DNA of 64,000 nucleotides from Dehalococcoidia bacterium (GTDB lineage: Bacteria; Chloroflexota; Dehalococcoidia; Tepidiformales; Tepidiformaceae). The DNA is taken from the NCBI GenBank assembly GCA_009839725.1, contig VXPF01000117.1:83531-147530 (forward strand). Reading direction: 5' to 3'. Under the pieces are notes generated by a model. That model searched no databases and was not told the DNA's origin. It was given only the letters and a program-made list of their open reading frames with translations. A program made the translations under genes and the position numbers. Positions 16,410-19,268 of this stretch are shown piece by piece (positions within the stretch are counted from its first letter, which is position 1; each line of letters starts with the position of its first letter).

Positions 16410-16781
16410 TCAGCCGCCGAGTCCCGGCAGGTCGAGCCCGCCGGTGAACATGCCGAGGGAATCCGCCTGGAGCGCATTGGCGCGCTCGGCGGCATCGTGG
16501 ATGGCGGCCAGCACGAGGTCCTCCAGCATCTCGACGTCTTCCGGGTCGACGACGTCGGGCTCGATGGCGATGGCTTGGATCTTCTGCTCGCCATTCATAG
16601 TGACGCGCACGGCGCCGCCGCCGGCGGTGCCCTCGACGGTCTTGGCGGCAAGCTCTTCCTGCGCGCGCTGGAGCATGGCCTGGGCCTCGGCGAGCTGCCC
16701 CGCCTGGGCGCCGCCCCGGCCACGCTGGCCGCCGCCGCCTCCGCGACGCATGTACCGGTTGCGACCACTGCTCTTGGCCAT
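16410..16781 (-). CDS. YbaB/EbfC family nucleoid-associated protein
   Basis: Position between dnaX and recR; MNGEQKIQAIAIEPDVVDPEDVEMLEDLVLAA. Confidence 0.92.
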   Translation of the reverse strand: MAKSSGRNRYMRRGGGGGQRGRGGAQAGQLAEAQAMLQRAQEELAAKTVEGTAGGGAVRVTMNGEQKIQAIAIEPDVVDPEDVEMLEDLVLAAIHDAAERANALQADSLGMFTGGLDLPGLGG

Positions 16782-18289
16782 CAGGCGTTCTCCTCGGGGG
16801 GCTGGGGGCGTTGGGGAGGTTCGGGCGACTCGACGGGTTTCGCGCCCATCTCGCGCGCGGCGGCCGCCAGGTGGCCGCCCTTGGCGGGGCGGCTTGCGGG
16901 CGCGGTCCGCTCGATACGCTCGACCGCAAGGGTGACGGGGCGCTTCAGCAGCTCCTCCGCCTTCTGCTCCACCAGGGTGCGTCCGTCGCTCGCGATCTTG
17001 TTCATGTGGATGGGATGGTAGAAGCCGAGCCGCAACTCGTCACCGTCCATCGCCAGCACCTTGCAGGAGTCGTTCAGCCAGGCGGCGAGGGCCGGCTGGG
17101 TCATCCGGCAGCGCTGGTAGAGCTCCCTGAGGAAGCGATCCTCGCGGCTTTCGCTGGCGGGGTCGCGACGACGGGCCCGGGACCCGCGTTGCGGGCGCTG
17201 GCCGCCGCGGGTCGGCTGTCCGTTCGCAGCGGCGGCTGCCGGAGCGGCGGCGGGTTGGGCGGGGCCGAGGACGGCGGCCGCACAGGCGACCTCAAGGGGC
17301 ACGGGGCTACCGGGGTCGCGGCGGAAGTCGGCGGCGGCGAGCTCCGCCACCGCCGTCGTCAGGACGCCGACGTCGGGCGTGCGCTCGCGGGCGGCCACGA
17401 GCAGGCGCTCGCGGAGGGTGTCGATGGCCTCGCGCGTGAAGCGGGCGATATCGAGGCCGTCGCCGGCGACCTCGCGGGCGATCTCGAGAGCCGCGCCGAG
17501 ATCACGGTCGGCGATGGCACCGGCGAGCTTCTCGGTGCGCTCGTCGCGCACGAGCCCGAGGGATTCGAGCACGTCGTCGGTGCTCGGGGAGTTGCCGTAC
17601 ATGGAGGCGATCTGTTCGAGCAGGGTGATGGCGTCGCGGAGCGCGCCCCGCGCCTCGCGGGCGATGGCCAGGAGGCCTTCCTCGGGGAGGCTGTAGCCCT
17701 CCTCTCCGGCGATGAAGCGCAGGCGTTCGACCATCGCCTCGATGGGGATGCGGCGAAAGTCGAAGCGCTGGCAGCGGGAGGTGATGGTGGCGGGGATCTC
17801 GTGCAGCTCGGTGGTCGCGAGGATGAAGATGGCGTGGGGCGGGGGCTCCTCGAGCGTCTTGAGGAGGGCGTTGAAGGCGCCGGTCGTGAGCATGTGAACC
17901 TCATCGAGGAGGTACACCTTCCGCTCGAGGTCGCTTGGGGCGAAGGCAATCTTGTCGCGGAGCTCGCGCACGTCGTCGATGCCGCGGTTGCTGGCGGCGT
18001 CCATCTCGATCAGGTCGAGGGCGGCGCCGCGGTTGATGGCGTCGCAGGAGGGGCAGGCGTTGCAGGGCTCGCCGCTCACGCGAGTCGTGCAGTTCACGGC
18101 CTTGGCGAGGATGCGGGCGGTGGTGGTCTTGCCGGTGCCGCGAGGCCCGGCGAAGAGGTAGGCGTGGGCGACCTTATCCGTTACGAGGGCATTGCGAAGG
18201 GTCTCGACGACGTGGTCCTGGCCGACCACTTCCTCGAAGCCGCGTGGGCGCCACTTCCCGTAGAGCACCGTCCCTCCCCGGAGAGCCAA
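16781..18289 (-). CDS. dnaX: DNA polymerase III subunit gamma/tau
   Basis: KWRPRGFEEVVGQDHVVETL, GPRGTGKTTTARILAKAVNC; start uncertain (TTG 18289 or GTG downstream). Confidence 0.94.
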   Translation of the reverse strand: MALRGGTVLYGKWRPRGFEEVVGQDHVVETLRNALVTDKVAHAYLFAGPRGTGKTTTARILAKAVNCTTRVSGEPCNACPSCDAINRGAALDLIEMDAASNRGIDDVRELRDKIAFAPSDLERKVYLLDEVHMLTTGAFNALLKTLEEPPPHAIFILATTELHEIPATITSRCQRFDFRRIPIEAMVERLRFIAGEEGYSLPEEGLLAIAREARGALRDAITLLEQIASMYGNSPSTDDVLESLGLVRDERTEKLAGAIADRDLGAALEIAREVAGDGLDIARFTREAIDTLRERLLVAARERTPDVGVLTTAVAELAAADFRRDPGSPVPLEVACAAAVLGPAQPAAAPAAAAANGQPTRGGQRPQRGSRARRRDPASESREDRFLRELYQRCRMTQPALAAWLNDSCKVLAMDGDELRLGFYHPIHMNKIASDGRTLVEQKAEELLKRPVTLAVERIERTAPASRPAKGGHLAAAAREMGAKPVESPEPPQRPQPPEENA

Positions 18290-18343
18290 CGTACAGCGTT
18301 GACACGGGAGAGTATAGAACGGATGTCCCGCCGTGGATCACGA

Positions 18344-18369
18344 AGGAGGGGGCCGATCGGCCCCCTCCT
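18344..18369 (-). terminator. Strong GC hairpin downstream of the 62-aa ORF
   Basis: AGGAGGGGGCC-GATC-GGCCCCCTCCT; weak T-tract (TTCGTG). Confidence 0.6.
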
Positions 18370-18424
18370 CCCGTTGGTACCCAGACCGGAGCCTCGCCCG
18401 GGGCGAGGTCCCAGGTTGAGGCGG

Positions 18425-18613
18425 TTACGCCGCCCGATCGAGCTCCTTCCCCTGCAGGAAGACGTCGACGGGATGCAGCCCCGCTTCGCTGTCGCTGATG
18501 CGCTCCTTGTTGGAGCGCAGGGCCTGCCACTCCTTGCGGAATCGAGCCTTGGGCGAGTTCGCCTCGTGAAGGCGCCCCAGAAGGACCGCGCGGGCCAGTT
18601 CATACTCAGTCAC
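18425..18613 (-). CDS. Hypothetical 62-aa protein downstream of a ydaO riboswitch
   Basis: GTG start preceded by GGAGGAG at 5-nt spacing; VTEYELARAVLLGRLHEANSPKARFRKEWQALRSNKERISDSEAGLHPVDVFLQGKELDRAA. Confidence 0.65.
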   Translation of the reverse strand: MTEYELARAVLLGRLHEANSPKARFRKEWQALRSNKERISDSEAGLHPVDVFLQGKELDRAA

Positions 18614-18749
18614 AGATACTCCTCCGATTGAGCAATGGCGGCGGCGCTCCCGCCACGGGAGCATCGCCAGGCGACGCCGTCGGGGTCCCACGACTGCTTG
18701 CGGCCGTTTCGGGTCTGGGCGTTCGCTGCGAACCGGAGTCGAAGCGATC

Positions 18750-18774
18750 GAGAGACCCCCACGTGAGGTCCCTC
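18750..18774 (-). promoter_or_regulatory. Candidate riboswitch expression-platform hairpin overlapping the 3' pseudoknot strand
   Basis: GAGGGACC-TCACGTGGG-GGTCTCTC, 8-bp stem (one G.U), no U-tract. Confidence 0.45.
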
Positions 18775-18895
18775 CTACGCCGGCGGGGTTAGCTGTCGGG
18801 CTACGACTGGAGGTGCCGTCCGCTTTCGCGGTACGCCCCTGAATGTGGCGGTTCCCCCGCTCCCCCGGAGGGGATTTGGCGGCAGCAGATGCTGC
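18769..18895 (-). ncRNA. ydaO/yuaA-family c-di-AMP riboswitch
   Basis: Minus strand GCTGCCGCCAAATCC...GCGGGGGAACC...GGGGCGTACCGCGAAAGCGGACGGCACCTCCAGTC...AGCCCGACAGCTAACCCCGCCGGCGTAGGAGGG matches conserved ydaO elements (GGAACC, CCCGACAGCUAACyCCG, CCUCC/GGAGG pseudoknot arms). Confidence 0.88.
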
Positions 18896-18950
18896 CCATC
18901 CAGCGTTTCAGGTCGCCCCGCAACAAGCAAGGGGCCGGCGCCACAGTGGG

Positions 18951-19268
18951 TCAGAAATGGAGCGCGAGCCAGACCGTGGGCTCGTCCGGGGCCGTCCAGG
19001 CGACGCGGTGGCGGCGGTGCGGGGGGATGTCGGTCCAGCCGCCGGCCTCCAGATCCAGCGTCTCGCCGTCATCGAACTCGAGGCGGGCGCGGCCCTGAAC
19101 GACGAGCACGAACTCGCGCCCGGGCTGGTCGTACCAGAACCCCTCGGGCGAGGCGTGCCCCGTAGAGACGATGCGCTCGATGCGGACGCCGTCGCCCTCC
19201 ACAAGCGTCTCGACCAGCTCTTCCGGGAGGTCCGGCGGGAGGTCGCGGAGGAGGTCGCCGGCGCTCAC
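18951..19268 (-). CDS. Cupin domain-containing protein
   Basis: GREFVLVVQGRARLEFDDGETLDLEAGGWTDIPPHRRHRV. Confidence 0.85.
   Translation of the reverse strand: MSAGDLLRDLPPDLPEELVETLVEGDGVRIERIVSTGHASPEGFWYDQPGREFVLVVQGRARLEFDDGETLDLEAGGWTDIPPHRRHRVAWTAPDEPTVWLALHF

Follow-up and report, generated by a model that had tools for sequence, protein, structure and literature searches.

The window, by which we mean the whole 64,000-nt stretch of Dehalococcoidia bacterium DNA that was analyzed, comes from an assembly of 2.83 Mb in 160 contigs. Its minus strand carries a c-di-AMP (ydaO/yuaA) riboswitch aptamer, a 62-aa open reading frame (ORF) that begins 149 nt downstream on the same strand, a GC hairpin and then dnaX (Table 1). 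The aptamer, predicted originally on this strand as near-complete, scores 61.6 bits against Rfam RF00379 (gathering threshold 38 bits; E 7.4e-12), and because the match spans positions 1–134 of the 134 in the model the aptamer is in fact complete. The RF00379 alignment pairs the P1 strands CGCC and GGCG, and the conserved core of the class (GGGAACC, a GTCAGCTAACC-like element and a closed P1) is present, appearing in the alignment as GGGGGAACC and GACAGCTAACC; this core hardly varies among the nine genus genomes. As a member of its class the riboswitch is ordinary, and its RNA would be expected to bind c-di-AMP. Literature searches on c-di-AMP riboswitches in Chloroflexi or Dehalococcoidia returned nothing relevant.

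Three RF00379 riboswitches are present in the window's genome, including the one that precedes the 62-aa ORF; the second precedes a gene for a 72-aa zinc-ribbon protein and the third, as judged on an orthologue, a KamA-like radical SAM gene. The genome also encodes a DAC domain (PF02457, the domain of c-di-AMP synthases; E 2.2e-41), as do all 13 genomes tested (the window's own and 12 others), and the presence of this gene argues that the host makes c-di-AMP.

Table 1 Features of the riboswitch locus in the window.
Feature	Position	Strand	Evidence
c-di-AMP (ydaO/yuaA) riboswitch aptamer, complete	18763..18891	minus	RF00379, 61.6 bits, model 1–134 of 134
GGCGTAGGAGGGACC, 3′ strand of aptamer P1 and tail; potential pairing with codons 9–15 (helix A)	18767..18781	minus	
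Local hairpin GAGGGACC...GGTCTCTC by the aptamer, alternative partner of the tail	18750..18774	minus	Folding
Spacer segment GCCCAGACCCGAAACGGCCG; potential pairing with ORF codons 8–14 (helix B)	18701..18720	minus	Synonymous shuffles
Hairpin GCTCCCG-TGG-CGGGAGC, upstream of the ribosome-binding site	18646..18662	minus	
Shine-Dalgarno sequence GGAGGAG	18619..18625	minus	Sequence; GGAGG invariant in the alignment
62-aa ORF, GTG start; riboswitch-controlled small protein (predicted)	18425..18613	minus	9/9 genus genomes; 13 family members in 4 genera
ORF codons 9–13, synonymously unchanged across nine genomes; probably belong to the expression platform	18575..18589	minus	
Terminator-like GC hairpin of 13 bp following the ORF, without U-run	18342..18371	minus	Sequence and orthologous loci
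TATACT box upstream of dnaX	18311..18316	minus	Alignment, kept in 8/9 loci; promoter scan calls none
dnaX, next gene downstream	16781..18268	minus	Pfam DNA_pol3_delta2 and DNAX_ATPase_lid

The small protein and its relatives behind riboswitches

The GTG-started ORF and its Shine-Dalgarno sequence lie where they had been predicted, and every one of the nine genus genomes has the unit of riboswitch and ORF. Among these genomes the riboswitch scores 60.5–71.3 bits, the spacer between aptamer and ORF measures 145–151 nt, and the orthologous proteins are 47–85% identical to the window copy. For the ORF as a whole pN/pS is 0.64, a value that alone is weak evidence. By segment, pooled over pairs, pN/pS is 0.13 over codons 19–29 (N-S-P-x-x-R-F-R-K-E-W), a stretch with normal synonymous change (pS 0.45) that lies outside the frozen codons described below, 0.37 over codons 16–33, and 0.78 from codon 34 on, where the C-terminal half is almost neutral. 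From these segment values we conclude that selection at the protein level acts on the N-terminal part and barely on the tail; clear selection is limited to only about the first 33 residues, a point missed originally. Kept behind every orthologous riboswitch and with its motif so constrained, the ORF is, by these comparisons, a real gene. Neither of the two outcomes named beforehand as counting against the original reading, a covariance score under the gathering threshold and an ORF without conservation downstream of orthologous riboswitches, was observed.

A single-sequence search of 60 relatives placed the protein in its own genus only. When a profile of the genus proteins was run against 38 genomes of the bacterial family, blind to riboswitches, the weak matches included proteins in genomes G013 (E 0.001) and G015 (E 0.05), which are encoded directly behind different RF00379 copies, one of 63.4 bits and one of 33.1 bits; the riboswitches of genus g8, at 33.1 and 30.7 bits, are under the gathering threshold of 38. 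Two further members, in G017 and G033, were added from the ORFs behind 166 RF00379 matches, giving 13 units in four genera, with all 13 convincing matches behind a riboswitch. The genomes of the relatives with the ORF are MAGs named Dehalococcoidia, Chloroflexi or Tepidiformaceae. Residues P21, R24, E28 and W29 are in register from the start codon across genera with different spacers, and hhalign of the genus profile against the four proteins from other genera gave P 6e-6 (probability 85). In a direct shuffle test all 10,000 shuffles scored below the G013 and G015 proteins, which was not so for those of G017 and G033; when the test was reversed, some shuffled sequences scored level with real members. 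Homology to the proteins of the other genera, which would be remote, is therefore likely, though sequence by itself does not make it secure. Genomic context adds a good deal to the case: outside the genus the copies are away from dnaX and yet behind a riboswitch, and three of the four are followed by a strong hairpin after the stop codon. On this evidence the family extends beyond a single genus, which the original prediction had not noticed.

Rescanning 393 Dehalococcoidia genomes with the profile returned only the 13 members with convincing scores, a scan of 400 Chloroflexota genomes added no convincing member, and viral contigs held none. The weak extra matches from the two genome scans were set aside because they contained stops, lay in long frames or were without a riboswitch. 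Also set aside was a small RFREEY-containing protein of genus g13 (L142, L146) that looks similar and has no riboswitch upstream; its PE.RFREEY, which recalls the motif, is accompanied by a conserved tail, NIGRF.ARPS.

No family had been recognized for the protein from the sequence, and database searches agreed: Pfam, NCBIfam, PHROGs and PADLOC gave nothing significant (a single PHROGs match, at E 0.006, came from one member out of nine), a search of PDB sequences found no relative (best match E 0.94), and Foldseek with the AlphaFold model, whose pTM is low, found no match at E ≤ 10. That model (pLDDT 78 and pTM 0.39 as a whole) is all-helical, with a confident N-terminal helical hairpin (pLDDT ~90) and a poorly defined tail. 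Most likely the protein is a small soluble adaptor that would bind a partner through the N-terminal hairpin with its P-x-x-R-[FYH]-x-[KR]-E-W motif. With riboswitch and ORF paired in four genera or more, the protein has the look of a genuine output of c-di-AMP signaling that has yet to be described; the suggestion that it is a new member of the c-di-AMP regulon gains support from nine of nine genus genomes, from four units in three other genera, from the lack of a known family and from the DAC gene in every genome tested.

Pairing between the leader and the coding sequence

Codons 9–13 of the ORF have a pS of 0.000 across the nine genomes, and none of 205 five-codon windows of dnaX is so low (minimum 0.074). 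At codon 11 each of the nine carries CTT, a codon that accounts for 0–15% of dnaX leucine codons in eight of them and is rare in the GC-rich ones. Two segments of the leader could pair with this part of the ORF, one at the 3′ end of the aptamer (helix A), invariant in eight of nine orthologues with one A-to-G change, and one in the spacer (helix B); the predicted leader-ORF pairing places GGAGGGACC opposite codons 9–12. We compared the duplexes formed by the real codons with those formed after swapping them for synonyms drawn from each genome's own dnaX usage. The real codons out-paired the shuffles in seven of nine genomes for helix A (p ≤ 0.026) and likewise in seven of nine for helix B (p ≤ 0.031), p-values that are not mutually independent because the nine genomes are related. 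The two failures of helix B are the window's own genome (p = 0.449) and its nearest relative (p = 0.232), and in the window's own genome helix A alone is supported (p = 0.011). Since they use overlapping ORF codons the two helices would compete, and helix A takes up part of aptamer P1.

Elsewhere in the leader, which folding indicates is long and strongly structured, the arms of the local hairpin by the aptamer are invariant in the nine genomes, and in the hairpin upstream of the ribosome-binding site three of eight sequences have U-A in place of C-G at one pair, both sides having changed. Covariation in the leader is nearly absent (term 0.08), a measure with little power here as the sequences are too alike. 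The ribosome-binding site is largely paired in all folds, and forcing the aptamer to form left exposure of the Shine-Dalgarno sequence unchanged and opened the ribosome-binding site in no genome. A consensus scan of positions 18200–19050 called neither a promoter nor a terminator, and between aptamer and ORF no intrinsic terminator was found by the scan and no U-run by eye. Given that codons 9–13 are frozen and pair in prediction with the leader, the expression platform probably extends into the coding sequence, another feature that had been missed; and because no terminator is seen in the leader, control is probably exerted on translation.

Other genes behind sister riboswitches

The 72-aa zinc-ribbon protein (MPALQEAPP..CPKC..CGYVHEV..QPSHGKLRL) is highly conserved and is an apparent target of c-di-AMP riboswitches in its own right, its BLAST cluster covering up to 17 genera and 29 of the 166 riboswitches (for example G000:C91:13293-13428; L001/L042); it has only sub-threshold zinc-ribbon matches in Pfam and none in NCBIfam. 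A second zinc-ribbon protein, of 57–62 aa and ending in PEWRFG or PEWRYG, forms a cluster of about 12 genera and 21 of the 166 riboswitches (for example L065, L068, L089, L103, L119 and L149) and matches no curated family at cut-off. Like the 62-aa protein, these proteins of the same bacterial family (72 and 60 aa) are all very small and encoded directly behind RF00379; they differ from it in being cysteine zinc ribbons, with no detectable homology to it. The zinc-ribbon proteins suggest that the regulon is rich in small proteins. Two more groups, of ~140–190 aa, recur behind c-di-AMP riboswitches, one (L082, L094; 11 loci) with no Pfam or NCBIfam match and the other (L071, L081; 18 loci) with a coiled-coil look by eye. 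A ~580-aa protein (L046, L128 and others; 17 loci in 14 genera) combines membrane-like segments with a weak match to glycosyltransferase-2, and starts ~20 nt behind its riboswitch, which suggests a different expression platform. The regulon of the relatives includes KamA-like enzymes, trehalose-phosphate-synthase-like proteins, MFS and SulP-like transporters and a membrane glycosyltransferase, some of these names coming from reading the sequence and not from a scored family match.

Mode of control and what the unit may do

The unit had been described as a single gene ahead of dnaX, closed by an 11-bp GC terminator. The GC hairpin itself is borne out, with 13 paired positions on each side and recurrence in most orthologous loci; as it has no U-run and the scan is silent, we infer termination at 18371–18342 from that recurrence. 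The TATACT box suggests a promoter for dnaX separate from the riboswitch unit, and dnaX is probably outside that unit. That the riboswitch instead controls dnaX through read-through, the small ORF being incidental, would suit both the missing U-run and the presence of dnaX downstream on the same strand in nine of nine genus genomes. We think it very unlikely, however, because the conserved hairpin and the TATACT box intervene in most loci and because other genera keep the ORF with the riboswitch, with dnaX in no riboswitch-flanking locus there. Nor does much favor the protein being a degenerate relative of the 60-aa zinc-ribbon protein that ends in PEWRFG: a Pro-x-x-Arg-Phe string, a similar length and the same kind of control are common to both, but the 62-aa protein has no cysteines, carries the string elsewhere and falls in a separate BLAST cluster, which makes a shared origin scarcely credible. 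The ORF could also be a piece of the expression platform that only looks like coding sequence (a leader peptide or decoy), its nucleotides mattering and its protein not. The frozen codons that pair with the leader, the near-neutral C-terminal half and the attenuator-like position of a hairpin directly after the ORF would all be expected of such a piece, whereas the low pN/pS of codons 19–29 alongside normal synonymous change, and a motif at equal distance from the start in other genera despite different spacers, would not. Nothing would be left to attenuate, moreover, with dnaX served by its own TATACT box and the copies in other genera away from dnaX, and we regard this explanation as improbable.

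The literature treats c-di-AMP riboswitches as OFF switches; that of Bacillus subtilis acts by termination, and the Corynebacterium glutamicum nlpC riboswitch, which is without a terminator, appears to be a translational OFF switch for which pairing of the ribosome-binding region has been proposed (PMC9960051). With ydaO/kimA of B. subtilis, the RF00379 prototype, the riboswitch described here has in common the aptamer family, a score above gathering and a leader position on the same strand as its gene, whereas the target there is a K+ importer and here an orphan 62-aa protein. The prototype's use of a terminator (PMC9960051) and the length and strong structure of the present leader would be in keeping with transcriptional control of the same riboswitch-ORF unit (premature termination, Rho or RNase). 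We consider such control fairly unlikely, since the leader, unlike that of the terminator-type B. subtilis switch, has no intrinsic terminator or terminator-like site that we could find and, by prediction, pairs with the ORF in the region of the ribosome-binding site. In lacking a canonical terminator it resembles nlpC; it differs in that the nlpC target is a cell-wall peptidase and in the predicted pairing inside the ORF. By analogy with these systems we infer OFF polarity, and a translational mode of control would fit the leader.

The locus is best read as a genuine c-di-AMP riboswitch whose sole apparent target is a small protein not described before. On this reading, binding of c-di-AMP by the aptamer would refold the leader and lower translation of the 55–64-aa helical protein, and a drop in c-di-AMP would lead to the protein being made; c-di-AMP falls during hyperosmotic or low-K+ stress. 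Control would act at translation initiation, the 3′ strand of the aptamer and the spacer segment competing for the same ORF codons with the Shine-Dalgarno sequence and start codon held between two helices. We hold the whole of this, a monocistronic riboswitch unit working as a translational OFF switch with a small adaptor as its output, to be reasonably probable. The more specific proposal, that the 55–64-aa helical family is a dedicated c-di-AMP effector in one family of Dehalococcoidia and that the genus riboswitch uses the first 15 codons of the gene as switching RNA, seems to us evenly balanced. An adaptor made under osmotic stress would fit the regulon of the relatives.

In many bacteria c-di-AMP governs osmotic and K+ balance, and riboswitches are a direct route from it to outputs. 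What is new here is the target, an undescribed small-protein family, together with the platform, and not the riboswitch itself; the setting is a little-studied group of Chloroflexota and the signal, c-di-AMP, is one of stress. A platform that includes coding sequence, a plausible new variant, would be a testable variation on the way this riboswitch class acts, and for an uncultured lineage a small protein found solely behind c-di-AMP riboswitches is a strong lead toward a new effector.
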